Part shown: positions 33,291 to 48,441 of the stretch, piece by piece
Position numbering within the stretch: the stretch's first letter is position 1
How the letters are laid out: the number at the start of each line of letters is the position of its first letter
Assembly (NCBI RefSeq): GCF_003367315.1
Contig: NZ_CP031415.1
Coordinates: 2,106,001-2,170,000, forward strand
Reading direction: 5' to 3'
DNA length: 64,000 nucleotides
DNA from: Saccharospirillum mangrovi
GTDB taxonomy: Bacteria > Pseudomonadota > Gammaproteobacteria > Pseudomonadales > Natronospirillaceae
Made by a program: the position numbers and the translations under genes
The notes under the pieces: generated by a model
Told to the model about the DNA's origin: nothing
The model's input: the letters and a program-made list of their open reading frames with translations, nothing else
Databases searched by the model: none

Positions 33291-33407
33291 GCAGAACTCC
33301 GAATAAGACTTTGAATTTCAAACTTTAGAAGACACTGGCGACTCCGGATACTTTACCAAGGCCGAAGAAGTCAGCAGAATTACGACCCAACCAGTTATCT
33401 TCCGTTG

Positions 33408-34712
33408 ATGGAACAACACAGGCAAAGGCAACGACTCATGGTCTCAGAACTCAACAAACGCCACTCTCGTTGGTATGAACAATTAGTCTTCAGCCTTATT
33501 TTTCAGTTGATAGCTGGCTGGTTAGTGGTGGCATACCTACCGGCCGTGGTGTTATGGGACGCACTCTATTGGAGTGACTTGAGCATTACTGAACGCAATT
33601 CTTTGATCGGAGTTAGCATTGTCATTGTGTTTAGCATCGTGACTTTAAGAAAAATTTTCCGCTATCCTGGCACCATCACAGCCGCTTATATTTTGCCCAC
33701 ACTGATCGGTTTATACGCACTGCTGTTTTTTATTTTAGTGATAGGCCGAATCGATTATGCACGGTCTCTACTTCTAACCAGCGGCAGTATACTTGTTATA
33801 CTTTGTTTCTTTGGTCAGCGATTAGCAAATAAGCATGCCCGCCAAAAATTAGCAGTCGTTCCAATGGGCAGGACCAGCCAATTGCATGACTTCAAGAACG
33901 CTAGCTTTCATCAGCTAACCCAGCCGGCCTTAGGCAATACACGCTATAACGGTGTGATCGCAGACCTTCATGCCAATCTGCCAGCCGAATGGCAGTTATT
34001 TCTCGCCCAATGCACTCTCGCACGCATTCCTGTATATCACTACAAACAGATCATGGAATCACTGACAGGCAAAGTAAAACTGGATCACCTATCGGAAAAC
34101 CAGTTTGGGATGCTTACTCCCAATCCTTACTATGAAGGATTAAAACGTTTTATTGACTTAGTGGCTGTATTTATTACCGCTCCAATTATAATTCCAATCA
34201 CCCTGCTAACCGCCATTGCCATTCGAATTGAATCCACCGGCTCTGCACTTTTTACACAAGAGCGTGTCGGTCAAGGCGGAAGGACATTTCGAATCTACAA
34301 ACTGCGCAGCATGGTGAAAGATTCAGAAAAAGACGGCGCTCAATTTGCCCAGGAAGGTGACATGCGAGTCACCCGAATCGGCGCCGTTATCCGCAAGTTG
34401 CGTATAGACGAGCTACCGCAGTTTTGGAATATTCTAAAGGGCGATATGAGCTTAATAGGCCCACGCCCAGAGCAAGAGGCTTTTGTTTTAGAATTTGAGA
34501 AGAGTATTCCTTTTTATTCGTATCGGCACGTTGTAAAACCTGGCATTACTGGTTGGGCTCAAGTTCGTCATGGATACGCTGCAAATGCCGATGATACGCA
34601 GGAAAAAATCGAACACGACTTTTACTATATTAAAAATTATTCACTATGGCTGGATATCCAAATCGTTATAGATACCATACGGACTGTACTTACAGGGTTT
34701 GGCGCTCGCTAA
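33408..34712 (+). CDS. Polyprenyl-phosphate hexose-1-phosphate transferase (initiating enzyme)
   Basis: A 434-residue WbaP/WcaJ-type PHPT. Four N-terminal spans lie within about 20-150, a middle domain covers 150-240, and the catalytic C-terminal domain begins GLKRFIDLVAVF near 245. Catalytic features are RVGQGGRTFRIYKLRSM near 286-302, the Asp-Glu pair in RIDELPQFWNILKGDMSLIG near 331-350 and GPRPEQE directly after. It transfers a hexose-1-phosphate (Gal, Glc or similar) to undecaprenyl phosphate, starting O-unit assembly. ATG 33408 is used; a TTG precedes it. Its stop is only 2 bases from the end of the convergent glycosyltransferase gene. Confidence 0.85.
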   Translation: MEQHRQRQRLMVSELNKRHSRWYEQLVFSLIFQLIAGWLVVAYLPAVVLWDALYWSDLSITERNSLIGVSIVIVFSIVTLRKIFRYPGTITAAYILPTLIGLYALLFFILVIGRIDYARSLLLTSGSILVILCFFGQRLANKHARQKLAVVPMGRTSQLHDFKNASFHQLTQPALGNTRYNGVIADLHANLPAEWQLFLAQCTLARIPVYHYKQIMESLTGKVKLDHLSENQFGMLTPNPYYEGLKRFIDLVAVFITAPIIIPITLLTAIAIRIESTGSALFTQERVGQGGRTFRIYKLRSMVKDSEKDGAQFAQEGDMRVTRIGAVIRKLRIDELPQFWNILKGDMSLIGPRPEQEAFVLEFEKSIPFYSYRHVVKPGITGWAQVRHGYAANADDTQEKIEHDFYYIKNYSLWLDIQIVIDTIRTVLTGFGAR

Positions 34713-34714
34713 GA

Positions 34715-35521
34715 TCAGCGAAATTTTCGGTACATCCATGCTTTGAAAGTATTTGGTGAGAGTCTTAGTGCGGACCTCACCAAAAAATTAAACATAAAAA
34801 GACTAAACCCAATGAAGCCGATGCGCCTCTGGAATCTCAATAAACGAAATTCGGCCAATAAATATTGCGAACCCCGACGTTGCATCATACCGCGCCCTGC
34901 TCTCATCTTGACCAAACAAGCGTCTATATTTGCAATGGAATAGCTATTCACCAGAAGCATAGACCACAATGCATAATCCTGTGCTTTACGCAATTCAGGG
35001 TACCCACCAACACCTTGAACAACAGACTTACGAAACATCACGGCCGGATGGCTCAAAGGACACCGTCGCTTTGCATATTCGAATAGTTCACTTGATTCAG
35101 TTGGTAACTTTCGAACCGATATCCGACGTTCAAAACTTTCATCCCATTCTTCAACAAGACCACTTGATGCAGCAATTTCAGGGCTTTGTTTCATAAAAGC
35201 ATATTGAAGTTCAAAGCGGTCGGGCACTGCCCGATCGTCAGTATCCATCCGCGCAACTAGATCATAACTACACTTTTCCATACCCGCATTCAATGCAGCG
35301 CCCAAGCCTTTATTTTCTTTTAATGAAACTAAAGTCAATATATCACCCAAACGTTCCGACCAGCCTCCAATGACGGAATCTAGCTCTCGGGTTAAAGGGC
35401 CATCCTTCACAATAACAATCTGCGATGGTTTCTGAGTCTGATCATCCCAAACACTTCGTATCGCTTCATCCAGAAAGCTGGGTGATTCTGACTGATATAC
35501 AGACATCAATACTGAAAACAT
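34715..35521 (-). CDS. GT2 family glycosyltransferase
   Basis: A 268-residue GT-A enzyme. FSVLMSVYQSESPSFLDEAI at the start, IVIVKDGPLT near 35-44, LKENKGLGAALNAGMEKC near 67-84 and the metal-binding DTDD in ARMDTDDRAVPDRFE near 90-104 place it with small O-antigen GT2 enzymes; a C-terminal hydrophobic stretch (near 230-250) may attach it to the membrane. Its ATG overlaps the stop of the beta-propeller gene (TAATG). It is the last gene of the minus-strand operon and converges with the PHPT gene. Confidence 0.85.
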   Translation of the reverse strand: MFSVLMSVYQSESPSFLDEAIRSVWDDQTQKPSQIVIVKDGPLTRELDSVIGGWSERLGDILTLVSLKENKGLGAALNAGMEKCSYDLVARMDTDDRAVPDRFELQYAFMKQSPEIAASSGLVEEWDESFERRISVRKLPTESSELFEYAKRRCPLSHPAVMFRKSVVQGVGGYPELRKAQDYALWSMLLVNSYSIANIDACLVKMRAGRGMMQRRGSQYLLAEFRLLRFQRRIGFIGFSLFMFNFLVRSALRLSPNTFKAWMYRKFR

Positions 35522-36783
35522 TAAAGATCCAAATCCATACGGTATAAGTGCCGTTCACCACTCCAAACAGAATCAAAATACACAGACTTTCCGTCTGGAG
35601 AAAAACGAGGATGGAGATCACATCTAGATTCTCCAGAGTAGCGGAAAGGGTGATAAAACTCGCCCAAGTGACGTACCTCTCCAGTTTTCCAATTAGCAAG
35701 CAATAAATGCTGCATTCTAGACTTATCCGGATATGTATCAGTAACAAACCAATCCCCATTAACATGAGGATGACCATCACCATAGGATTTGAGTGCTTCG
35801 GTAGGAGAAAGACTAAAGCGCCCCGATGATACTTGAATCAACCAATATCCGTCTTGACCATTAGGACCACGCAAGTATCCTAATACGGTGTCGTTATCTA
35901 ACCAATAACAATGACTAACCATTCCATAATCAGATAACAAAGCCATTTCAGAAGTTTTCAGATCAATACTCAATAATCGATCAAACCGCCGCCCCTTAAT
36001 CAAATAGCGATGCATAAATATAGCGCGATCACCACTGGGAGATATCATTACATGATTAAATTTGTGAAAAGCAATTTTAAAGTCAGGAATTGACCTTAGT
36101 CGACACGCATTTTCTATACTAACCAACAAACGTGAATTTCCAGTTTTATAATCCACATACCAAAGACCATCACGTTTAATATCCTTTATTTCGACAGCCG
36201 ATAATGTAGGCAAATTTCTATATCCATAATCAGGCCGAAGCGACATTAACCTACGGTAATTTAGTGAAAGGAAAAAAATATTTTTAAATGAATCTTGAAC
36301 AGGATGATCATACTTCGCTATTTGCTTACCAGCAGAAACTGAAAAAACCTTCGCCACATATCGATTTTCCACTTCACAAAAATCATTATATACAAATATA
36401 TTTTCACTTAACCAGTGAGCTCTTGCACCTTGCTGTAAATTAAAGGCCTTAGTTGAAACCAGACTATGAAGGTTTCCTTGTCTATCAAAAACACCTATTT
36501 TAATTTCTCGGCTTTTATATGAAATACTCGATGTACCATGATCTGTTACACAAGCCAGAACCAAACCATTTGTGTTTTCCGGAGATTTATCATAATAACC
36601 AAAAAATGTTCCTGCACTAGCAGGATCGAACCCAAAAAGAGGATATAGAGACTTTCGGATATATTTTTTTTTATTTACCAAAAACACCACTCTTGCGTAT
36701 AAAAATTTTGCAGTGCTCTTTAGCAATGGATATCGAACCAACAAAGATGCTAACTTTCGCTCAACCAAATTATAACGACTCAA
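35521..36783 (-). CDS. Putative beta-propeller protein of the O-antigen cluster
   Basis: A 420-residue protein with no signal peptide or membrane span. The sequence has repeated beta-rich units with TolB/WD40-like features, for instance GTFFGYYDKSPENTNGLVLA near 58-77, FNHVMISPSGDRAIFMHR near 236-253, HCYWLDNDTVLGYLRG near 285-300 and DLHPRFSPDGKSVYFDSVW near 390-408. I know no defined function for such proteins in O-antigen loci; it could be a carbohydrate-modifying lyase-like enzyme, or a scaffold for glycosyltransferases. The start is a TTG overlapping the wzy stop (TTGA), and its stop overlaps the GT2 start, so it is tightly embedded in the operon. Confidence 0.6.
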   Translation of the reverse strand: MSRYNLVERKLASLLVRYPLLKSTAKFLYARVVFLVNKKKYIRKSLYPLFGFDPASAGTFFGYYDKSPENTNGLVLACVTDHGTSSISYKSREIKIGVFDRQGNLHSLVSTKAFNLQQGARAHWLSENIFVYNDFCEVENRYVAKVFSVSAGKQIAKYDHPVQDSFKNIFFLSLNYRRLMSLRPDYGYRNLPTLSAVEIKDIKRDGLWYVDYKTGNSRLLVSIENACRLRSIPDFKIAFHKFNHVMISPSGDRAIFMHRYLIKGRRFDRLLSIDLKTSEMALLSDYGMVSHCYWLDNDTVLGYLRGPNGQDGYWLIQVSSGRFSLSPTEALKSYGDGHPHVNGDWFVTDTYPDKSRMQHLLLANWKTGEVRHLGEFYHPFRYSGESRCDLHPRFSPDGKSVYFDSVWSGERHLYRMDLDL

Positions 36784-37790
36784 TTATCCATCCTCATAAA
36801 TAATCTTTCAATTTGATCAAAATTTAACATATCTTCTTCAATATCCAAAACCGTACCTAAGAAGTTAATGAGTATCAACAAACCAAACATGAATTTAAAT
36901 TGGACTCTAAACTCAAGACCAAATCTATTAATAAAGTTTATCAGCGAAACCAAAATAAATGGCAGCAAAAAATTAACAAACCTAAGATAAATCTCTTGCG
37001 ATATATAAACAATATTAAACAACCAAAATACCGTCACACTTACCATTATCAAAGATAGGAACCAGTCGCGCTGAATCCCAGAAAAAAACATAAGATTAAA
37101 TAACACTACTAAAACCAACACTATCGCCAGGAAATTCGGATAAGCTAAAACATCTAAATTCGAAGAAGAATACTTACCGTACCCGATATACTCAACAACA
37201 ACACCACCTGCAATAGTCGTGAAAACCAAGCCAACAGCGAACACCGCCAACATAATGCGCACACCTAAAATACGCAATGCAATATAATAAAAAACCACTA
37301 ACAAATAAAACAAAGCCGATATGTGGAAAGATGTAGCAATTACTGCCGCAGCAAGCAATCTTCTATAGCTCAACTTCTGAGAAAATAAATCGTTTACAAA
37401 CGCCTGAAGAAATATACCGATCGCCAACCATGTCTGCAAAGCATTTAGTAAACCAATAGCAATGTTCGGAACAAACAAAAAGAAATACAGCCCTAGAAGA
37501 GGCGAATTAACACTATAAAAAAACCTTAAAAGTAGTCCCATAGTAATTATACGAAAAAACAACACTATGGCTTCTGGTGATAAACCTAGCTTTAATAGAA
37601 ATAATACAATTGATGAAAATCCAGGCTCTCGGAAATATTCTCCCGAACCTATTTCACCAATTATCCTTACATAATTAAAATAATCTCGACCAACTTCAGG
37701 ATTGATAGCAACAAAAAAACACAAACACAAAAAAACCATTACATATAAATAAAGTGATGGCAGCCTAACTAATTTTATAGTGCTACTCAT
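36780..37790 (-). CDS. wzy: Wzy-type O-antigen polymerase (EpsG-like)
   Basis: A 336-residue protein with about 9-10 membrane spans. EpsG/Wzy-like features are GRDYFNYVRII near 34-44, REPGFSSIVLFLLKLGLSPE near 54-73 and the segment ATSFHISALFYLLVVFYY near 151-168 with its central His. Such proteins polymerise undecaprenyl-linked repeat units at the periplasmic face. It overlaps the GT2 gene before it (ATGA) and the beta-propeller gene after it. AT-rich codon use is pronounced. Assignment as polymerase rests on topology, EpsG-like motifs and the presence of a separate flippase and ligase. Confidence 0.75.
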   Translation of the reverse strand: MSSTIKLVRLPSLYLYVMVFLCLCFFVAINPEVGRDYFNYVRIIGEIGSGEYFREPGFSSIVLFLLKLGLSPEAIVLFFRIITMGLLLRFFYSVNSPLLGLYFFLFVPNIAIGLLNALQTWLAIGIFLQAFVNDLFSQKLSYRRLLAAAVIATSFHISALFYLLVVFYYIALRILGVRIMLAVFAVGLVFTTIAGGVVVEYIGYGKYSSSNLDVLAYPNFLAIVLVLVVLFNLMFFSGIQRDWFLSLIMVSVTVFWLFNIVYISQEIYLRFVNFLLPFILVSLINFINRFGLEFRVQFKFMFGLLILINFLGTVLDIEEDMLNFDQIERLFMRMDN

Positions 37791-38701
37791 GGCTTATAAA
37801 TAACTCGCTTCATTTTAGCAGTGAACTTTTTATTTAAAAATAACGCCAGAACTGAAGGGGATGGAAATAAAATAAGAGCCAAAAACGATCTAAACCAGTA
37901 TCTAGGCGACCTATTTTTCTTATGCATTTTTGCTAGATATTTTTGATGGTTAGACTCAGCTTGCAATTTCTCAAGGCATCTCAGATGAGCATTTGAAGTA
38001 TTCACCTTTTTAATTTGGCGCAATTTATTAATCGCGACTACATGCTTATCAAAAAGGACATCATTACTTATCGAAGGACTGAGTACATTTTCCGTCCAAC
38101 AAAATGTAATATCCTTTAAGCAAACAAAGTGACCGAAAACAGAACAGCCAAGCCACAATGCATAATCTTGCCGGGCAGGCATTGTCACATCAAATCCACC
38201 AGAGGCCAATACAACTGATGTATTAAGCACAACCCCAGATGTAACTCCAACATAATTCTCGATATAAAGATCGTGCAAAGATACAGTAGACTTTCTTCTA
38301 AAAGCAACATCAACTATTTCGCTAGTTCGCTCAGTTATTATATTTGCAGAAGCTGCGACTCCAACAACATTACCTTTAAAAGAAGCCAATGCCTTTGTAT
38401 AAAAATCTGGAAGTACAAAGTCATCATCATCTAAAAAATGCACATAGTCTGAAGTTACAAGCGAAAGACCTATATTCCTCGCCTCAGGTGCACTATAAAC
38501 ATCAGGCCGTTCCATACAATGTAATTTTCTATTTTTAGCAGCGTAAGTTTTGAATTGCTCATATCCATAACTCGCATTTACACCATTAAATACAACTATA
38601 ATTTTTTTTACGCTACTCTCTTTTGAAACTGACTCAACCGCCCTTTGTAATAGCCACCCTGGCCGAGTGCATGGAATAACCACACTTATTTCATTTTTCA
38701 T
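37787..38701 (-). CDS. GT2 family glycosyltransferase
   Basis: A 304-residue GT-A enzyme starting ISVVIPCTRPGWLLQRAVESV near 5 onward, with ERPDVYSAPEARNIGLSLV near 67-85, the D-x-D motif in VHFLDDDDFVLPDF near 91-104 and MPARQDYALWLGCSVFG near 174-190. The C-terminal 60 residues are basic with a hydrophobic stretch that may associate with the membrane. It adds a sugar to the O-unit on the cytoplasmic face. It overlaps wzy by 4 bases and follows the GT4 gene after 34 bases. Confidence 0.83.
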   Translation of the reverse strand: MKNEISVVIPCTRPGWLLQRAVESVSKESSVKKIIVVFNGVNASYGYEQFKTYAAKNRKLHCMERPDVYSAPEARNIGLSLVTSDYVHFLDDDDFVLPDFYTKALASFKGNVVGVAASANIITERTSEIVDVAFRRKSTVSLHDLYIENYVGVTSGVVLNTSVVLASGGFDVTMPARQDYALWLGCSVFGHFVCLKDITFCWTENVLSPSISNDVLFDKHVVAINKLRQIKKVNTSNAHLRCLEKLQAESNHQKYLAKMHKKNRSPRYWFRSFLALILFPSPSVLALFLNKKFTAKMKRVIYKP

Positions 38702-38735
38702 CTTACATCACTCTAAATTTCTTAAATGAATAAAT

Positions 38736-39977
38736 TTAACTATTCAGACCTACAACATGCGCTATAAATGACTTACTTATCTCCTTACTATCAAAAGAAT
38801 TTCTAACAACGTACCTTGCGTTTTTTGACATCTTGCCCAAATCGTACTTATTATTAAAAATATCATTCAATACGTTTGCTATCATGCGCTCATTTTTCTC
38901 TTCAACAAGAAAACCTGAAACCTCATTCTCTATTAATTCAGGGATACCGCTATGAAAAGTCGAAACAACAATAATCCCTTTCGCCATTGCTTCCATTAAA
39001 GAAACAGGTATACCTTCTTTATCGCCATTTGGAGCCATTACAGAAGGCAATAAAAATACATCCGTTTCATTCAACAGATTATTAACTGCATCAGATGATA
39101 AGTGCCCATGAAAATGAATGTGCTTATTTAAATTTAACCGATTGACCTCTTCGATCAACCTCTCTTTTTCTGGCCCCTCACCAACAATATCGTATTTAAA
39201 GGCTACCCCTAAGCTTCTCAACATACTCATTGCCCTAATTGAATACTTCAATCCTTTTTTAGGGACCAATCTAGCAACAGAGGCAATTGAGATAAGTGAT
39301 TTATAATCTTCGTTTCTCTTTATTGAAGCATTATAGTAATTTAGATCCACACCCATCCGGAATATAGATATCTTATCCGCCACACAACCTAGCTCTAATA
39401 GCTTTTCTTTCCAATAGTTGCTTATTGGACATATTGAACTTGATATTCTAAAGAGTCGTCTATATTGATTTTTATATCTTTTAATAATGTTATCTACTGA
39501 TATTTCATAGCCATGGAATATAGCAATCAATTTAGAATCAATTACACCCAAATCAATCAAATTAGCTGCAATTGTTGCCGTTGTCCCGAAATGACAGATA
39601 ATCACGTCAGGTGGGCTTTGAAAGATATTGTTTGCCCGCTTCGTTATAGATGGCAACAATAAACTAATACTATCAATTCCATACTTAAAAAAGTTTAACG
39701 ACTTGGCGGTTTTTAAATTAAAGATACCAGCACAAACACTTTTCAATCTTTTCCAAAGTCTAATATATTTTTTTTGACTTAAACTCTCATCAGTTAAGTA
39801 TGTGGTATAGTCATCCATTCCGTATAAAGAATATTTTTTATGACCAGCCCCTAACCCTCCTCGAATTATTGATACAATTTCAACATCCACACCACCATCA
39901 ATAAAATCGGCAATCTGGTTAACTACAAACGTTTCTGATGGTACCGGAAATTGACGTAAGAAAAACACGACCTTCAT
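38736..39977 (-). CDS. GT4 family glycosyltransferase
   Basis: A 413-residue GT-B enzyme. It starts MKVVFFLRQFPVPSETFV and shows CHFGTTATIAANL near 131-143, FHGYEISVDNII near 155-166, SVARLVPKKGLKYSIRAM near 234-251, IVGEGPEKERLIEE near 263-276 and KEGIPVSLMEAMAKGIIVVS near 321-340, with the Glu pair of the donor site. The ATG at 39977 is preferred to a codon 17 residues upstream because the conserved N-terminus begins there. It resembles the GT4 gene at 29.5 kb in layout. It is the first gene after the IS remnant. Confidence 0.86.
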   Translation of the reverse strand: MKVVFFLRQFPVPSETFVVNQIADFIDGGVDVEIVSIIRGGLGAGHKKYSLYGMDDYTTYLTDESLSQKKYIRLWKRLKSVCAGIFNLKTAKSLNFFKYGIDSISLLLPSITKRANNIFQSPPDVIICHFGTTATIAANLIDLGVIDSKLIAIFHGYEISVDNIIKRYKNQYRRLFRISSSICPISNYWKEKLLELGCVADKISIFRMGVDLNYYNASIKRNEDYKSLISIASVARLVPKKGLKYSIRAMSMLRSLGVAFKYDIVGEGPEKERLIEEVNRLNLNKHIHFHGHLSSDAVNNLLNETDVFLLPSVMAPNGDKEGIPVSLMEAMAKGIIVVSTFHSGIPELIENEVSGFLVEEKNERMIANVLNDIFNNKYDLGKMSKNARYVVRNSFDSKEISKSFIAHVVGLNS

Positions 39978-40315
39978 ATAACTAGCCCACACCCTCTTTG
40001 CATCGTGATCGACCAACCATATATGCAAATTTATTTTAAAATATTAAGTTTAATAATTTTCCAGGAAAGCGTTGAAAAAATCCATCCAGAAGACCTACCA
40101 TTAGTGCTGAAACGGGAAGAATAAAATTTCGGAATAAGTATCGACGACAATTTGCAGTGCTTTGCTGGACAACTATATTTATGTCATTATAAAAAATCTC
40201 AATTATCGACACAATGCCTTATATAAATGCTAAAAGCAGGGACATATATTCAATAAACATCTCAGATATTAATTTCTCTATTTATTAAATTTTCTCGTAT
40301 GGTTTACCCCAAGAT
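39978..40315. other. AT-rich intergenic stretch, nothing recognised
   Basis: This 340-base stretch between the GT4 gene and the IS remnant is very AT-rich. No open frame with a recognisable product, no clear terminator and no convincing promoter was found, though it must carry whatever leader the GT4 gene has if the IS remnant breaks the operon. Confidence 0.5.
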
Positions 40316-41280
40316 TCACTCCAACGGCGCTCTAGTAATGTCCGTTGCGTTTGTATCTTTTATCGCTTTTCGAACTGTCGCTTCATACTCCAATTGTGCT
40401 TGATAACAATGCGATAAATAACGTTGACATACAATGCATTCCCATCGCCAATGATTGATCTCTTGCCGAACGTTGGCAATATCTTACAATCAATGTCTAC
40501 TGAAACATTCGTCCCGAAATTTCCCATTGAAGCTCTCAATATAGATATTTTGCGCGGGCCTTCCCGAATTGAACGGTTTCAGCTCGACGCCGTGACATAC
40601 GCCCATTGACCCAAAGCTTTACCCTTATAATCTGGGCCTTGATAGGTTCCGATCAACTTCGGAAACCCCCTGAATGCAGCACAAGCATCGAGCGTTCGAA
40701 CGACCTGATCATCTGAGATGCCTATGACAACGGAGATATCCAGACGTCCACGTAGAACTCATCCACAATCGCCAGGCTTACTGAATCAGCAGCCAGTGGC
40801 AACCACTTCCATTACAATCATCCATCGACCATTTGTGGTTAAGCGCTTCTAGTAACATCAGCGGCTTTCGTTAATCCATTGCGTCTTGATGAAGCAGAGC
40901 TGGCGAACTGCAATTCCGGTTTTGCGGTAGAATTGGTAATCCTTCATATAATTCACGTCCGCCCCTCACAGCACACCATTTGATGGACACGCAGGCAATC
41001 AAACCTGCAACGTTTATAGGCAATGGATTGGATGCGACCCGACAATACCCGACCCTATACAACCAACGTGGTCGAATACCTTAAAGTAGCGTCAGATAAC
41101 CCGACAAGTGGATAAGCTTTGCGCTCAGATACCGACGTCTGTACGGCTACGGAGCACAAAGCGTCAGTTCTCGACGGTCAGTAGCACGACCAACAGAACT
41201 ATGGCATTCAGCATAGGTTCGACTAGCTGTTTCAAACCGGGCGTTCTTGTCCTCTAGCGCTTAAAATGTAACAAATCTCG
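40316..41280 (-). pseudogene. Decayed IS3-family transposase (orfA/orfB remnant)
   Basis: Translating the minus strand in shifting frames gives IS3-type transposase pieces in the right order: LKQLVEPML near 41235 (OrfA end), SERKAYPLVGLS near 41120, VNYMKDYQFYRKTGIAVRQ near 40955-40900, NHKWSMDD near 40835, VVRTLDACAAFRGFPK near 40700 and GVELKPFNSGRPAQNIYIE with SFNGKFRDECF at about 40590-40505. The last is the conserved region around the third residue of the DDE triad. Several frameshifts and stops show that it is dead. No clear terminal inverted repeats or target duplication were found. It lies inside the O-antigen operon. Confidence 0.82.
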
Positions 41281-41477
41281 AGAATTCAAGGTCGCCGTGC
41301 TACTTCATCGCTCCATATGTTGATGAACACTACTTGGATCACTTTAGATTAGAAAGAGGGGGCAGGTCGTCAATGATTTGATGTATCAAATAAAATCTCA
41401 GTCAATTAATAAATCCATCTCAATCAAATCAAATTGTTTTAGAGAAATTCATTAATGTGTCCGAATAGACACAGGTA
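41281..41477. other. Spacer between the IS remnant and the pyruvyltransferase gene
   Basis: About 200 bases without a gene. It becomes AT-rich towards the pyruvyltransferase end. No terminator with a stable stem was seen, nor a clear IS end. Confidence 0.4.
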
Positions 41478-42554
41478 TCATAGCAATCCTAATTGATTCG
41501 GTAACTTATCAAAATATTTTTCACAAAAATCAGGGCTTTCTAATAAGTTATCTGTCAACACTTGATGAAGTTTTTGATCTATTTGATCAGGTGAAGGTGA
41601 AAAAGCCACAAAACTGGTTGAATTAAACCAATCCATTGCAGATGTTAATTTATGGTCCACTGTTTTGAGAACCACCGCAGGACGCTTTGCGATTACTGAA
41701 AAAATCAAACCGTGAAATCGATCTGTTACAACAGCTTCGTGCTCTAATACATCGAAAATGAACTCTTTAATAATTTCAATTCTATTTTCTGAGTTTATAG
41801 GCTTGGAAAGAGTTGTATCAGTGAGCAAGGTCTTTTCACCTAAACTTTTAGCGATGCTCTGACGATCTTCAACAGATAGGACCGACTCATCATCGACTCT
41901 TAAGCACGCTAAAATTTCTCCTTTTTTTGATGAAATGTCAGACATACCAAGGTCTTCTAATTTTAGCGAAAGTACAAAATCCGGTACAACTAGAACCTGA
42001 GCTTTAGGAAAAATTCTTTCGGCTAAAAGGCCACTCTCTTTGTCTCGCCCAATGATTGTTAAATTTGGATGACCGGCATATATTTCTTGTGAAATAGACT
42101 GCTGTTTTTGACCTTCAGCTGTATCGCTAAAAAATATAGTCTGGGGAAGTGAAATAATTCTATTTTGGTGAAAGTTATTTATCATCAACCTCCGGCCCGT
42201 TTCAGACCAAATACCTCTATCCCCCATGTTTCCTCCAGAATGAAGGAAAATAAGATCATCTGGAGCGATCAATTTCTTTAACAGACGCTGCCCGTAGATA
42301 ACTTCATTTTTATCTACCTCTAAGACGGAGTAATCTGGGAAATGCTTTTTAAACCACAGCTCAATTGCCACTACCTGCGCATGATCTCCAATATTCGCCA
42401 GTTGAGGCGTAGGCGTTAAAGCGTAAATAATCCTTTTGCCGATTTTTAAATTACGAACTCGCAAATTTAATCGATAAATTGCCAGCCATTTCCTATAAAA
42501 TTCTCGCAACATTCGAAGCGTATTAAAAAGAAAACTTGGTAAATATTTCTTCAT
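41478..42554 (-). CDS. Polysaccharide pyruvyltransferase family protein
   Basis: A 358-residue protein. The family motifs are ANIGDHAQVVAIELW near 53-67, LHSGGNMGDRGIWSETGR near 104-121 and VVTDRFHGLIFSVIAKRPAVV near 273-293, containing the Arg-x-His-Gly element. It is closer to the ExoV/PssM pyruvyltransferases than the copy at 26.2 kb. It should transfer pyruvate from PEP to a sugar hydroxyl pair or an alternative group in the O-unit, making the polymer acidic. It is downstream of the MenD-like gene with a 46-base gap. The acceptor sugar is unknown. Confidence 0.8.
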   Translation of the reverse strand: MKKYLPSFLFNTLRMLREFYRKWLAIYRLNLRVRNLKIGKRIIYALTPTPQLANIGDHAQVVAIELWFKKHFPDYSVLEVDKNEVIYGQRLLKKLIAPDDLIFLHSGGNMGDRGIWSETGRRLMINNFHQNRIISLPQTIFFSDTAEGQKQQSISQEIYAGHPNLTIIGRDKESGLLAERIFPKAQVLVVPDFVLSLKLEDLGMSDISSKKGEILACLRVDDESVLSVEDRQSIAKSLGEKTLLTDTTLSKPINSENRIEIIKEFIFDVLEHEAVVTDRFHGLIFSVIAKRPAVVLKTVDHKLTSAMDWFNSTSFVAFSPSPDQIDQKLHQVLTDNLLESPDFCEKYFDKLPNQLGLL

Positions 42555-42600
42555 ATTATCACTAAAACCTTACACGAGGACATACTAAGTCGTCGGATAG

Positions 42601-44337
42601 TTAACCAATGATCTTTTTTATGGTTTTTATTTGTTTATCACTAAGGAGACGGCGCGCTGCTACTTTAACAGATTTTTTACTGTCTCTGCTTACATTTCTA
42701 ATCATATCTAACGCCAAACTTTCATCATCACCATTTGTGAATACTTCAAAAACCATTGATTCATCAGATGCACCCTTCACTACAAACTCTTGATACACCG
42801 AATCAAACTCTTCTTTAGATGAAGCACTAATATACTTAAGTCCCAAATCTTGAGCATAGTTTTTTACTAGCGTTGGTGACTTATTGCCAAAGTGCCCTAG
42901 CGCACAGATAAAATCGTCAGCTTGCTCTTCAAAATGTCCAACCAAACCATCTGTGCGTCGCATCTCGAACCCTTTTCCATTATTAACTACCATAAGCCGT
43001 AAATTATTTCCGACATGTCGGTTACCCAATGCATTCATATCGTAGAAAAAGGAAAGGTCACCGATTACACCAAAAAATGTTTTCTTTTGATTGGCCAAGG
43101 ACGCTCCTATAAGGCTTGAAAGTGAGCCATCTATGCCAAACCCCCCGACATTTGCTGTAGAGGTAACTGATTGGGGAAGGTCAAAGAAGTTCCAGCTACG
43201 TAGACTATTCAGAATTCCAAAATGAATCACAGAACCTTCCGGAATTAAGTGCGCCATCCGGGATGCTACCCAGACATTAGAAAAAGGGATATTAGGAACA
43301 CTATTCCGAATTTCCTCTAAGCGCTTCTGACATCGTTTTAAGCTGCCATCGGATGGGGCTTTAGATTTATCGGTATAACGTTCAAAAAATGTTTTTTCAT
43401 CCATCTCAAAAATATATTTTAGCTTTTTGAAAGTATCACGAAGCTCGCCATCAGGACTTACACGCCAAACTTCTTTTCCGACCATCGGAATACTTGCATA
43501 GTCACCAGTTACTTCACCTATGTGGATTGTAATATCAGGTTTGTCCTCACTCATATCTCCTTTCATTTGACTGGCGGCTAGTGCATACCCCACTCGATAT
43601 TTTCCATTAAAACTGCTAGTATGATCACAAAAAACTACTGCATCGTTTGCAGCACAGAATTGGTCAATTGCATCTATTTCTTCTGATGTAAATTGTCTGT
43701 GAGCACCAACGAATATCCCAACTTTGCCATTTATCTCTGGAAATTCATCCACAACGGTAAATCGATCCATAACCCTGCAAGTTGGTAGTTTTTTTGTATC
43801 ATAATTTTTACTGTAGCGTGTTGGCAAATTAATATGGACGGGACCACCACCACCACGTTTTAGCTCTAATATAGCTTGATTGACTTTAACCTCACAATCC
43901 CAAAAGTCGTCTTCGTCCTTTACTATTGGGAGCGTTACACTAAGTCGTTGGGTGTCGTTGGGCTTCTTACTTCTATCAATTATCTGGCCAATATTATGAC
44001 CCACTAGCCCAGTTGCTTGCGTAGATGTAATCGATAACACAGGCAATTTACGATAATACGCTTCAGTCATCCCAGGCATATAATTACGAGAAGCGGTTGC
44101 ACCTGTGCAGCTAATTACGACCGGCTCACCAGTTTCATGCGCCATACCGCAAGCCATGTAAGCTGCAGACCGTTCATCAACGGCCGAATAGAGTTTAAAA
44201 AACGGATCTTGCTGAACGCTTGCAACGAACGCTACATTAGTGGTTCCTGGCGAGACTATAACCTTACTAATCCCGTTCGCTTTTAAAAGCGAAATGATGA
44301 TAAGGACATTTTTTTCGTCAGTATAAAGCTTACTCAT
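42601..44337 (-). CDS. MenD-like thiamine diphosphate-dependent enzyme
   Basis: A 578-residue ThDP enzyme with the three-domain MenD/decarboxylase layout. The N-terminal PYR domain has VSPGTTNVAF near 28-37 and the cofactor-activating Glu in SAVDERSAAYMACGMA near 51-66. The C-terminal PP domain has FGIDGSLSS near 398-406 and the ThDP/Mg motif GDLSFFYDMNALGN ... VVNNGKG near 423-456. Compared with MenD, the Arg of NRGASGIDG is replaced by Val (NVGGFGIDG), so the 2-oxoglutarate pocket appears changed. It is probably not a menaquinone enzyme; a role in making an unusual O-antigen sugar or side group is inferred from its neighbours, the SDR and pyruvyltransferase. Confidence 0.75.
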   Translation of the reverse strand: MSKLYTDEKNVLIIISLLKANGISKVIVSPGTTNVAFVASVQQDPFFKLYSAVDERSAAYMACGMAHETGEPVVISCTGATASRNYMPGMTEAYYRKLPVLSITSTQATGLVGHNIGQIIDRSKKPNDTQRLSVTLPIVKDEDDFWDCEVKVNQAILELKRGGGGPVHINLPTRYSKNYDTKKLPTCRVMDRFTVVDEFPEINGKVGIFVGAHRQFTSEEIDAIDQFCAANDAVVFCDHTSSFNGKYRVGYALAASQMKGDMSEDKPDITIHIGEVTGDYASIPMVGKEVWRVSPDGELRDTFKKLKYIFEMDEKTFFERYTDKSKAPSDGSLKRCQKRLEEIRNSVPNIPFSNVWVASRMAHLIPEGSVIHFGILNSLRSWNFFDLPQSVTSTANVGGFGIDGSLSSLIGASLANQKKTFFGVIGDLSFFYDMNALGNRHVGNNLRLMVVNNGKGFEMRRTDGLVGHFEEQADDFICALGHFGNKSPTLVKNYAQDLGLKYISASSKEEFDSVYQEFVVKGASDESMVFEVFTNGDDESLALDMIRNVSRDSKKSVKVAARRLLSDKQIKTIKKIIG

Positions 44338-44511
44338 AATTTCACCCAGCGAATTGCTTAAATTTAATAAATCGAAAATTAAAAATTTTATTATCTATTT
44401 AAAGCTAACAAGCTCTTTCAGGTTTGCCATTTCTCCACTTTGTTGGACTTTTCCGCCAATCACTGGCAGCAGGCTGCGGTTTTCCAACAAATTCAATTCA
44501 TAATAGGTAAT

Positions 44512-45381
44512 TTATTTTAGCGAAAATCCCCCGTCGCATACGATAGTCTGGCCAACTATAAAGTTTGATGCATCGCTGGATAGAAACGCTGCTAATTCAG
44601 CAATTTCCTCAGGAATAGCAAATCGACCAAGAGGATTCTTTTCGCAGAAATTATTCTCACCCTGCTTTAATGTTCCGGGTTGCATGGCTGTAGCAATGAT
44701 TCCTGGAGCAATTCCATTAACAATTATCCCATGTGGTGCTAGTTTCACTCCAAGGCCTTGCGTTAGCCCTGCGATATCCCACTTTGTCATACGATAAGGG
44801 TAGGTGGCACCAACAAAGCCACCTTGAGAAGAAATATTTATTATCTTTTTAAGTTTATTAGACCTTCGAGACAGCCATCGTTTACAGATAGCTTGACTCA
44901 AAAAAAACAACCCCTTGTGATTTATTTTATATACATCATCCCACATCTCTTCGAGAACATCAGGAAACTGTATTCCGCGTACAATACCAGCATTGTTTAT
45001 TAATATATCTATATCTTCGCCAAGCAAATCCTTGCATTCATTAAGGTTTTGCTCAATGACCGAGATGTCAGCGGCATCCCAGACTATCCCCTTCAAATTT
45101 CCGCTATTAATTTCACTTAAAGCAGCATCTAACTTATTCTTATCGCGCCCAGTGATAACGACCTTCGCACCCTCTGCAATAAATTTTTTTGCAATGGACA
45201 AACCAATTCCTGCACTACCCCCCGTCACCAGTACATTTTTTCCATGTAGAATCTCACCATAATTTATGGTTGAAATTTCAAATACGGAGTAGCCACCAGT
45301 ACGATATATTTTCCGAAGCGAGGTTAAAATTAAAGGAGTTTTTTTCAAGAAATTGAAAGCAAACCGAATCATCTTTTTCAT
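44512..45381 (-). CDS. Short-chain dehydrogenase/reductase
   Basis: A 289-residue classical SDR with an N-terminal extension of about 45 residues. The cofactor motif TGGSAGIG is near 53-60, NNAGIVRG near 128-135, the catalytic Ser in INISSQGG near 180-187 and Tyr-x-x-x-Lys in YPYRMTKWD near 191-199; the end IVCDGGFSLK is typical of FabG-like enzymes. It probably reduces a keto group, perhaps on the product of the MenD-like enzyme encoded 174 bases downstream. The basic N-terminal extension (KKMIRFAFNFLKK) could give membrane contact. Substrate unknown. Confidence 0.8.
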   Translation of the reverse strand: MKKMIRFAFNFLKKTPLILTSLRKIYRTGGYSVFEISTINYGEILHGKNVLVTGGSAGIGLSIAKKFIAEGAKVVITGRDKNKLDAALSEINSGNLKGIVWDAADISVIEQNLNECKDLLGEDIDILINNAGIVRGIQFPDVLEEMWDDVYKINHKGLFFLSQAICKRWLSRRSNKLKKIINISSQGGFVGATYPYRMTKWDIAGLTQGLGVKLAPHGIIVNGIAPGIIATAMQPGTLKQGENNFCEKNPLGRFAIPEEIAELAAFLSSDASNFIVGQTIVCDGGFSLK

Positions 45382-45551
45382 CTAACCAACTCACATTTAT
45401 CCACAAACACTCTTATATAGGCTCAATAAAATATAACTCTAAAATTTTAATTCTAAAGAAATTGCACGTTTATAAGTGTGCAACAACAACTGGACTATTT
45501 GACCAGTTTAAGGGATTTTCACCTGTAGAATACTCATTTCATCGGTATTGC

Positions 45552-47105
45552 CTAAAACCGCATTCTTTGCAATGAAATTTTCAATTTAAGTAAGCGAGAG
45601 CGTATCGTCTCCACAATTTTTTCCCTCCAAGATTTGTCAAGCCCAATGGAGTACATGGCTATAGATGAGACTGCGAAACTAGCAAAGATGACCAATACCG
45701 ACCAGTAAAATCCATTTGGTAGCAGATGATTCATTACAGTGATAGGCAGCGCGGAGATCGAAACGATGCCTATAATCGGTAGTGCGGTGAACCTCAGAAA
45801 GTTCTCCACCGGAAACCCGGTAAGCCAATTCACGAGAAACAGCCGGACTCCAAACATTAGAATATTCGCCAAAATCGCGACAATAAAGACAGCGTAAGCA
45901 GGTGCACCCGCAGCGACTACCGCCCACGCCGTTAAGAGTATGCCTATTTGAATAGAGCCCAGAGTAAGCTCATAGACTTTCATCTTTCCTGGCGCTCTGG
46001 CCGCGGCGAACAATGGCATACTAATCGACATTATTAGGGCTTCAACAAGGGCTAGTTGTGAGAAAAGTACCGCATCTGAAGGTACCGTCTTAAGCCAGAT
46101 GCTTAATACGGCATCCATCTTGACCATCATAGGCAGTGCAAAAATCCATAGTAGAAAAAACGTTATTTTTGAACCACCGGTTATTAACCCATACATCTCC
46201 TGACGCTTATTGGCGGCGTAGGCTTTGATAATGGGTGGATAAAGACTGCTGTTAAAATTACTCGAGAATATGTTTACTTGGCCTGCAATTTGAACAGCAA
46301 GCGCCCTTGCCGCCACAACAGCCGGACTAAACGACTGGTTAAGCAAAACTGTCACCGCGTGAGTACGGGCAACAGTTGAAATAGCACCAAATAAAGTCCA
46401 GCCGGTGAAGCCGATAATCTCCCGGAACAGTGCAGCGTCCCAATAGAATTTACGGAACTGGCATTCGTCATATCTATACAAGCAAATACCGATGTATAGC
46501 ACTGCGTTTATTGTGCCCACACATAGTACTAGCAGCCCGTACAGTTCCAGCTTATCCCAAGCAATGTATTGAAGAAGGAACACGACGCCCAGCTTCATGA
46601 ACGCTTCAATGATTGATATGTATGCGTACAGCTTCATATCTTCATGGGCCATGATAATGGCCATGAAGGGACTGGTTATCACGCTAACCAGAAAAGTCAG
46701 CGTCGCATAGTGATATAAGGTTTTAGCGGCTTCAAACCTGCCTTCAGGTACGGACAGCTCAGTATTCACAAACCAGAGCCCGATGGTTTGAAGAGCAATT
46801 AACGCTATCAAGGCTACCGAGACATAAAGAGTAAGATTGACAGAAAAGGTTTTTTTCAACCGCTCGTCGTTTTGCTCACCCAGGGCGAATGAAAAGAAGC
46901 GTTGTGTTGCTTGTGCCAAAGTGCCAGGTAGAAAAGCGCTAAGTGCTACGAGACCACCCACCGCGCCATAGATACCGTAATCTTCTACGCCCAGTTGATG
47001 CAGAACGATTCGAATGGTGTATAGACTTACAAATAAGATTAATAATTGACGAAAATAGAGCATTAGCGTGTTATGGGCTATTCGTTTGTTTCTTTCTGAA
47101 ACCAT
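45552..47105 (-). CDS. wzx: O-antigen flippase Wzx
   Basis: A 517-residue polytopic protein with 12 or more predicted spans of the polysaccharide transporter/MATE superfamily. Features include VSLYTIRIVLHQLGVEDYGIYGAV near 26-49 (core: LGVEDYGIYGAVGG), LPGTLAQATQRFFSFALG near 59-76 and IAGQVNIFSSNFNSSLYPPI near 269-288. Wzx flips undecaprenyl-linked O-units to the periplasm. It is the first structural gene after the regulatory genes and lies downstream of the candidate ops site. Its base composition is closer to the backbone than that of the following genes. Confidence 0.85.
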   Translation of the reverse strand: MVSERNKRIAHNTLMLYFRQLLILFVSLYTIRIVLHQLGVEDYGIYGAVGGLVALSAFLPGTLAQATQRFFSFALGEQNDERLKKTFSVNLTLYVSVALIALIALQTIGLWFVNTELSVPEGRFEAAKTLYHYATLTFLVSVITSPFMAIIMAHEDMKLYAYISIIEAFMKLGVVFLLQYIAWDKLELYGLLVLCVGTINAVLYIGICLYRYDECQFRKFYWDAALFREIIGFTGWTLFGAISTVARTHAVTVLLNQSFSPAVVAARALAVQIAGQVNIFSSNFNSSLYPPIIKAYAANKRQEMYGLITGGSKITFFLLWIFALPMMVKMDAVLSIWLKTVPSDAVLFSQLALVEALIMSISMPLFAAARAPGKMKVYELTLGSIQIGILLTAWAVVAAGAPAYAVFIVAILANILMFGVRLFLVNWLTGFPVENFLRFTALPIIGIVSISALPITVMNHLLPNGFYWSVLVIFASFAVSSIAMYSIGLDKSWREKIVETIRSRLLKLKISLQRMRF

Positions 47106-47925: not shown

Positions 47926-48441
47926 TTAAGCGAACTGCACTGCTTTTATCGGTAACTCCAACCGCTGCTCTTTGCTCAACAGCTGCAACAACAACACTAC
48001 CCTATCCTCACCGCGAGTCATTTGAACAATCGCTTGGAGGTGCTTGAAGCAACCTTCGGTAATAGTCACTACTGTGCCAGCTTTAAGCTCGGGTTCGGGT
48101 GCTTCATTATTCAGTACCTGGCACTGCTTTATCACGCTGGCGACGATTGCATCAGAAACGACCAGCGGGCGGCCAAGGCTATTAACTAATCGCGCCACAC
48201 CTCGGGTACTGTTGACCTTGGCGACACTTTGATCGGCGTTGAGTCGGACGAAGAGGTAATGCGGAAACAGGCTTTCAACTTGCCAGTGCAGTTGGCCGGC
48301 ACGGCGGCGGCGCACTCGGTGTGTTGGATGGAAGCAGTGAATCTGCTGGTTGGCCAGATGTTCGGCGGCACGGAAACCTTCTTTGGGTTTGCATTGCACC
48401 AGATACCAGCTTGTTTGACCGTTGTTAGAGACCGCTTCCAT
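47926..48441 (-). CDS. rfaH: Transcription antiterminator RfaH
   Basis: A 171-residue NusG-family protein. The NGN domain contains SWYLVQCKPKEGFRAAEHLA near 11-30, CFHPTHRVRRRR near 36-47 and SLFPHYLFVRLN near 57-68; the segment RGVARLVNSLGRPLVV near 80-95 is typical of RfaH, and the C-terminal domain begins AGTVVTITEGCFKHLQAIV near 121-139. RfaH binds polymerase paused at ops and allows transcription and translation of long horizontally acquired operons such as O-antigen clusters. Finding it directly ahead of such an operon is meaningful. A linked gene position next to the target operon is unlike E. coli, where rfaH is elsewhere. Confidence 0.88.
   Translation of the reverse strand: MEAVSNNGQTSWYLVQCKPKEGFRAAEHLANQQIHCFHPTHRVRRRRAGQLHWQVESLFPHYLFVRLNADQSVAKVNSTRGVARLVNSLGRPLVVSDAIVASVIKQCQVLNNEAPEPELKAGTVVTITEGCFKHLQAIVQMTRGEDRVVLLLQLLSKEQRLELPIKAVQFA

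Follow-up and report, generated by a model that had tools for sequence, protein, structure and literature searches.

The window analysed in this study, a 64,000-nucleotide stretch of the Saccharospirillum mangrovi genome, carries a gene for a MenD-type ThDP enzyme among genes for a surface polysaccharide. This raises the question of whether the enzyme is a MenD at all and, if it is not, which reaction it may contribute to the polysaccharide. The original prediction described a MenD-type enzyme with intact cofactor motifs and an altered substrate pocket, located in an O-antigen operon and perhaps forming a C-C bond on a sugar in the manner of YerE.

The ThDP gene and its polysaccharide cluster

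The features of the cluster, by position in the window, are:

33405-34712, plus strand: initiating polyprenyl-phosphate sugar-1-phosphate transferase
34715-35521, minus strand: GT2 glycosyltransferase
35521-36783, minus strand: 420-aa protein with weak beta-propeller similarity
36780-37790, minus strand: EpsG-family membrane protein (EpsG match), likely polymerase
37787-38701, minus strand: GT2 glycosyltransferase (Pfam)
38736-40028, minus strand: GT4 glycosyltransferase; nearest model WcaL, below its cut-off
41478-42554, minus strand: PF04230 'polysaccharide pyruvyl transferase' family protein, 358 aa, the next gene downstream of the ThDP gene
42601-44337, minus strand: MenD-derived ThDP enzyme, 578 aa, open from ATG to stop; predicted catalytic Glu55, ThDP/Mg motif Asp427-Asn453, rebuilt pocket of Thr33, Gln107, Ile375, Leu376, Arg380, Val397, Phe400 and Glu458, and a basic C-terminal extension
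44371-44442, minus strand: probable remnant of a RED4-type reductase C-terminus, between the SDR and ThDP genes and on the same strand
44512-45381, minus strand: partner carbonyl reductase RED5, a classical SDR of 289 aa with a basic N-terminal extension
45552-47105, minus strand: probable MOP-type flippase (Wzx-like), 517 aa, 12 hydrophobic segments
47926-48441, minus strand: NusG-family protein at the head of the cluster, by inference an RfaH-like antiterminator

All of the motifs quoted in the original prediction, which named no strand, were found in the minus-strand gene at 42601-44337 (AVDERSAAY at residues 52-60, NSLRSWN at 377-383, NVGGFGIDG at 396-404, GDLSFFYD at 426-433 and VVNNGKG at 450-456), and its description as a MenD-type ThDP enzyme with intact cofactor motifs is upheld. 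Pfam returned a match to TPP_enzyme_N and a weak match to TPP_enzyme_C.

The window brings together an initiating transferase, three glycosyltransferases and a predicted flippase and polymerase, and by this gene content the cluster is of the Wzx/Wzy type; whether its product would be an O-antigen, a capsule or an exopolysaccharide is indistinguishable from sequence. The original prediction was therefore right to place the gene in a polysaccharide cluster, while the more specific label of an O-antigen operon could not be established. The window flippase matched no Pfam family, and of two relatives compared with MatE one (locus L009) scored over the cut-off and the other (L008) under it. Apart from its weak beta-propeller similarity, the 420-aa protein matched no family. 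Since the G+C content of positions 34715-47105 is 38.9%, compared to 55.8 and 56.8% in the flanks, the cluster was probably imported. Between the GT4 and PF04230 genes lie about 1.4 kb without a long gene (40030-41477), the minus strand of which resembles what we take to be a decayed IS3-type transposase (SFNGKFRDECF).

Separation from MenD and the rebuilt pocket

The best NCBIfam model for the window enzyme is menD (TIGR00173), with a score of 170.9 bits against a cut-off of 244.2. No menD and no menB gene scored over cut-off in the genome of the window, where the ThDP gene itself is the best MenD-like gene. Coexistence with MenD was examined in the genomes of 50 of the best 80 loci, 49 of which were searched: 20 of these 49 carriers encode a true MenD over cut-off beside the family member, with true MenDs scoring 343-458 bits and family members at most 191. 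In a phylogenetic tree, 38 family members fell on one side of a branch with an SH-aLRT of 100 and a long stem. A quick tree placed the family beside seven MenDs, among them the faecal Bacteroides-like menD of locus L011; however, a tree with all MenDs held together was better by 25 log units and was not rejected (p-AU 0.803), and the nesting of the family inside MenD was dropped. On these trees the family is a clade separate from MenD, with an origin from or beside it. The score, the separate clade and the coexistence with true menD genes all indicate that the enzyme is not MenD. The original prediction had proposed phylogeny, the men pathway and a search for a true menD elsewhere as checks on its reading; with the family forming a clade of its own, no menB over cut-off in the genome, and a true menD over cut-off absent from this genome but present in 20 of 49 carriers, that reading was not refuted.

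Residues were compared with E. coli MenD (from MG1655) across 85 complete family members, the window included and the partial L010 omitted, and across 22 MenDs, namely E. coli MenD, the L011 menD and 20 proteins over the MenD cut-off. As predicted, the alignment of the window enzyme with E. coli MenD shows Arg395 kept (Arg380), Arg413 changed to Val397 and Ser391 to Leu376; in addition, Ser32/Arg33 correspond to Thr-Thr, Arg107 to Gln, Lys292 to Tyr, Asn390 to Ile, Ser416 to Phe and Ile474 to Glu. Across the 85 members, Ser391 is replaced by Leu in 83, Asn390 by Ile in 84, Arg413 by Val in 74 and by Thr in 10, Ser416 by Phe in 83, Arg33 by Thr in 80, Arg107 by Gln in 72, Lys292 by Tyr in 76 and Ile474 by Glu in all 85, with Ser32 retained in 8 and Arg107 in 3. 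Glu55, Gln118, Asp442 and Asn469 are each retained in 85/85 and Arg395 in 84/85. At the switched positions the true MenDs carry the MenD residue in 21 or 22 of 22 (Ile474 in 22/22), and the Ser416 position holds Ser in 18 and Asn in 4; in total, nine columns are conserved differently between the family and MenDs. Because the switches are present in most of the 85 members and the MenDs retain the MenD residues, they are not attributable to chance.

The roles of these positions can be read from Listeria MenD. In the portion of PMC12312563 considered here, LmoMenD Ser408, Arg412 and Arg431 contact the 2-oxoglutarate-derived carboxylate with Asn434 near it, Ile491 contacts ThDP, and Ser34, Arg35, Arg108, Gln119 and Arg301 are the residues inferred to meet isochorismate. 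By alignment, the donor-site and ThDP residues map to E. coli 391, 395, 413, 416 and 474, and the isochorismate set to 32, 33, 107, 118 and 293, with an offset of one at the first two. Within the trio for the distal carboxylate of 2-oxoglutarate (Ser391/Arg395/Arg413), only Arg395 is retained in the family, and among the isochorismate contacts (Ser32, Arg33, Arg107, Lys292/Arg293 and Gln118) only Gln118. The altered pocket of the original prediction thus extends family-wide, with most 2-oxoglutarate and isochorismate contacts lost.

An AlphaFold2 model of the window enzyme, built on 64 aligned sequences, reached a pLDDT of 87.8 and a pTM of 0.86. The 50 Foldseek matches listed of 449 (E up to 0.001) were all MenDs, with TM scores of about 0.4-0.5 and an rmsd of 17-19 A over the chain. 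Given this rmsd, the modelled domain arrangement, which either differs from MenD or is misplaced, was set aside and is no evidence here. Beyond the end of MenD, the family carries a basic C-terminal tail. In the 70/85 members measurable by an anchor motif, the last 30 residues have a median net charge of +5.5 (from 3 to 10), compared to +2 in the 7/22 MenDs measurable. RED4 reductases (see below) have a basic C-terminus (median +4 over the last 25 residues in 37 sequences, lowest -1), and RED5 reductases a basic N-terminal extension (median 41 aa and +7, 33/34 measurable). According to the part of PMC12312563 considered, the last helix is itself longer in Listeria, Bacillus and Staphylococcus MenDs than in those of E. 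coli and M. tuberculosis. The basic extensions of all three proteins and the frequent association with a flippase would fit work at the membrane.

Family distribution and the reductase partner

Of 57 genomes drawn as relatives, that of the window alone gave a match at E 1e-20; in 369 genomes of the class, searched at E 1e-30, there was one further match, with 30% identity, that resembles a true MenD (PGSRN, ADRAPE). A homologue with 45% identity is located near PF04230, flippase and reductase genes on a Ruminococcus albus plasmid. By record title, the best 80 of 497 contig matches belong to Bacteroidota (41), Pseudomonadota (25), Bacillota (7), Verrucomicrobiota (2) and five other groups (1 each), although bin labels can err. 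Ten matches came from 'phage' records. Four of these are 49-52% identical and lie on unannotated faecal scaffolds, three of which carry polysaccharide genes; on the fourth, the ThDP gene is cut by the contig end, with a flippase-like gene and an aldo/keto reductase nearby. A fifth reads as a true menD locus, and two scans of viral contigs found no relative. A phage origin was therefore rejected, the five best of the ten records being unverified faecal scaffolds with polysaccharide or menD loci. Alistipes sp. dk3624 has two family copies (L064 and L046) about 1.8 Mb apart. Genes annotated menD on plasmids NZ_OY725958.1 and NZ_OY725779.1 (Bacteroides, Parabacteroides) are 28-35% identical to part of the window protein.

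Neighbouring genes were sought by tblastn within 3.5 kb at 86 loci, comprising the window, the five loci L006-L010 and, as L013-L092, the 80 most similar of the 497 matches; the counts accordingly reflect the closer portion of the family. Seventy-four loci had at least 3 kb on both sides; among these well-flanked loci, a flippase gene was found in 64, a PF04230 gene in 57, and a reductase, flippase and PF04230 gene together in 48. Overall, a PF04230 gene lay within 3.5 kb at 62/86 loci. The window PF04230 protein resembles pyruvyl transferases of the WcaK/CsaB type in matching PF04230 (68.6 bits), but it differs from CsaB, reaching 25 bits against a cut-off of 213. The role of these proteins is a guess, as four neighbours compared with the window copy are only 10-20% identical to it. 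A 405-aa protein encoded at L089 (4879-6093), like its relatives at five other loci, has flippase and reductase genes nearby; the L089 copy matched nothing in Pfam, NCBIfam or PDB sequences and carries a CSVCHKC motif and a SAGIDAF that is presumably PP-loop-like. At L010 (3838-4464) and L080 (7402-7995), the genes for the aldo/keto reductase and the ThDP enzyme are separated by one for a small protein whose N-terminus is hydrophobic.

The partner that the original prediction did not foresee is a dedicated, swappable carbonyl reductase. One was found within 3.5 kb at 70/74 well-flanked loci (77/86 overall), as a raw frequency; no reductase of the three kinds was found within this distance at the other four (L067, L079, L083 and L086). 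The kinds are RED4 (39 of the 74 loci), which is extended-SDR-like and matched PF01370 in both members tested, RED5 (30), a classical SDR, and an aldo/keto reductase, AKR (2, or 3 of all 86 loci as partner); two kinds may occur at one locus. A permissive test found the YxxxK pattern between residues 101 and 260 in 37/37 RED4 and 37/37 RED5 cluster members.

RED4 is dedicated to the ThDP enzyme. With the L013 RED4 as query over 49 carrier genomes, matches were obtained in 37, of which 36 were strong (>200 bits), with one such gene per genome (in two pieces in G457). As judged by comparing positions by eye, the strong match and the ThDP gene were less than 1 kb apart in 35/36 genomes, the exception being G447, whose two genes lie on different contigs. 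Three other matches were weak, at 63-72 bits, and occurred elsewhere. RED5 was the best-scoring SDR of its genome and within 1 kb of the ThDP gene in 12/12 genomes, all of which, the window's included, were picked as RED5 carriers.

The three reductase kinds replace one another repeatedly along the enzyme tree. On a tree of 85 members, 76 of them labelled by reductase kind, parsimony required 16 changes, fewer than with shuffled labels (26.9), which indicates inheritance of the kind with frequent exchange. The supported branches by themselves require no fewer than 7 changes for RED4 and 7 for RED5, and the window itself falls in a supported group of 8 members, 6 with RED4 and 2 with RED5.

The interval between the RED5 and ThDP genes of the window may preserve such an exchange. 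Positions 44371-44442 match the RED4 C-terminus with 15.2 bits, a score equalled by 0/12,000 shuffled frames (mononucleotide shuffles; best 8.3), and form the top six-frame match in the window (E 0.005, the next being 1.1); the likeness was spotted first and these statistics were computed afterwards. The segment escapes a full-length RED4 profile (E 16), and the eight best matches listed do not include the corresponding gap of L019, which is the second RED5 locus nearby. The segment is a probable relic of an in-place reductase swap.

Proposed function and alternative explanations

Since unlike reductases are exchanged beside a conserved ThDP enzyme, the best account is that this enzyme releases a carbonyl that needs reduction. 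We lean, with slightly better than even confidence, towards a decarboxylating C-C ligase that acts with the ketoreductase to make a carbon-branched or acyloin-derived residue of the polysaccharide. Given its intact motifs, the enzyme would attach ThDP to a 2-keto acid, followed by decarboxylation. The donor may be a small or hydrophobic 2-keto acid such as pyruvate: the enzyme has lost the basic residues that meet isochorismate and two of the three that hold the distal 2-oxoglutarate carboxylate, and by alignment Ile375, Leu376, Leu379, Val397 and Phe400 line the donor end. The acyl carbanion would then pass to a carbonyl acceptor and the adjacent reductase would reduce the resulting ketone, with different kinds of reductase possibly giving different stereochemistry. 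The product could enter the repeat unit, an attachment that the adjacent PF04230 protein may carry out, and the co-occurring flippase would export the unit bearing it. Several observations count against this account: the kept Arg395 may still bind a carboxylate, an invariant Glu near ThDP (Glu458) would suit a simple decarboxylase as well, 4/74 loci have none of the three reductase kinds, and most flanks lack a gene for an activated keto-sugar.

There are several alternative explanations for this gene. That it is a divergent true MenD supplying SEPHCHC, present in a polysaccharide cluster by accident, is extremely improbable. The family shares with MenD the fold, the ThDP-binding motifs, the catalytic Glu and the equivalents of Gln118 and Arg395, its best matches among solved structures are MenDs, and the window gene is the most MenD-like of its genome; however, this identity was rejected on account of the score under the MenD cut-off, the absence of a menB over cut-off, the coexistence with true MenD in carrier genomes and the switched donor and acceptor contacts. 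Moreover, the family differs from MenD in its basic C-terminal extension, its reductase partner and its location, which is in polysaccharide clusters with flippase or PF04230 neighbours at most loci and not among men genes. In the main rival reading, the enzyme is a non-oxidative 2-keto acid decarboxylase and nothing more, and its aldehyde product would be converted by the reductase to an alcohol or hydroxy acid that decorates the polysaccharide; we regard this as unlikely, although deserving of serious consideration. Decarboxylases carry their Glu at the sixth residue after the metal-ligand Asn, whereas the Glu of this family is at the fifth, and the ancestry shared with MenD favours ligation. 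Still, Glu458 (85/85) replaces Ile474, equivalent to the ThDP-contacting Ile491 in the part of the LmoMenD study considered, and could protonate the enamine; Glu mutations in pyruvate decarboxylase (E473 of the Zymomonas enzyme) affect decarboxylation, as far as the excerpt of PMC3534367 goes. Any of the three reductase kinds would serve such a pathway, and most flanks have no gene for an activated-sugar acceptor. A small alcohol or acid would, however, need activation, and there is no CoA ligase among the named neighbour clusters, many clusters being unnamed.

In the remaining alternative, which takes up the comparison with YerE in the original prediction, the acceptor of an acetyl unit is a nucleotide-linked 4-keto sugar, and the reductase then turns the added group into a hydroxyethyl branch; we consider it improbable. 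In the parts of PMC4753412 and PMC10338323 considered, YerE (yersiniose) is a TPP-dependent flavoprotein of the acetolactate-synthase type that makes a C-4 acetyl branch, and Pau7, an AKR ketoreductase, performs the acetyl-to-hydroxyethyl step in paulomycin. The gene logic is the same here, a ThDP enzyme and a carbonyl reductase forming a presumed two-step unit for a sugar in a polysaccharide cluster. The dedicated reductase that such chemistry would need is present, and at 3/86 loci this partner is likewise an AKR. The present family is, however, MenD-type; the acetolactate synthase model (TIGR00118), with its cut-off of 538 bits, gave the window enzyme only 49.7 bits, the best stretch covering residues 12-174. 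In flanks of up to 8 kb a side (for L013-L092; clusters named from representatives, epimerase/dehydratase by Pfam), RmlA-like genes were present at 7 of the 86 loci, RmlC-like at 8 and UDP-glucose-dehydrogenase-like at 12, and a mixed epimerase/dehydratase cluster including RmlB-like members at 27; most flanks contained no sugar-nucleotide pathway or recognised nucleotide-keto-sugar gene. The dTDP-glucose 4,6-dehydratase (rmlB) was over cut-off in 28/37 carrier genomes searched, that is, in 27 of 36 others and in the window's own, where it lies outside the cluster (3,510,321-3,511,340); the other nine had none over cut-off, two of them without any match at E 1e-30. Owing to these sparse keto-sugar genes and the nine genomes without the dehydratase, a YerE copy acting on dTDP-4-keto-6-deoxyglucose is weakened as the general case; the original interpretation is partly supported, a nucleotide-keto-sugar as the general acceptor not being so.

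Among the open-access (PMC) papers listed, none describes a MenD-type enzyme in a polysaccharide cluster, which is weak evidence of absence; in the part of a Vibrio capsule paper considered (PMC11641403), neither thiamine nor TPP occurs. Favouring the ligase-reductase pair, we put forward, as a tentative and rather doubtful extension, that a MenD-derived ligase and interchangeable reductases constitute a mobile cassette of two enzymes. In the surface polysaccharides of several phyla, this cassette would build a carbon-branched residue unrecognised until now, possibly on a membrane-linked glycan before flipping. If true, the MenD lineage would gain a branch with a new job, and a widespread route to new carbon skeletons in surface glycans would span gut Bacteroidota, Clostridia and marine Proteobacteria (organisms by record title). 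Annotators would gain residues and a neighbour rule that separate genes of this family from menD, and the dedicated reductase and the PF04230 protein would become candidates whose functions can be tested jointly.
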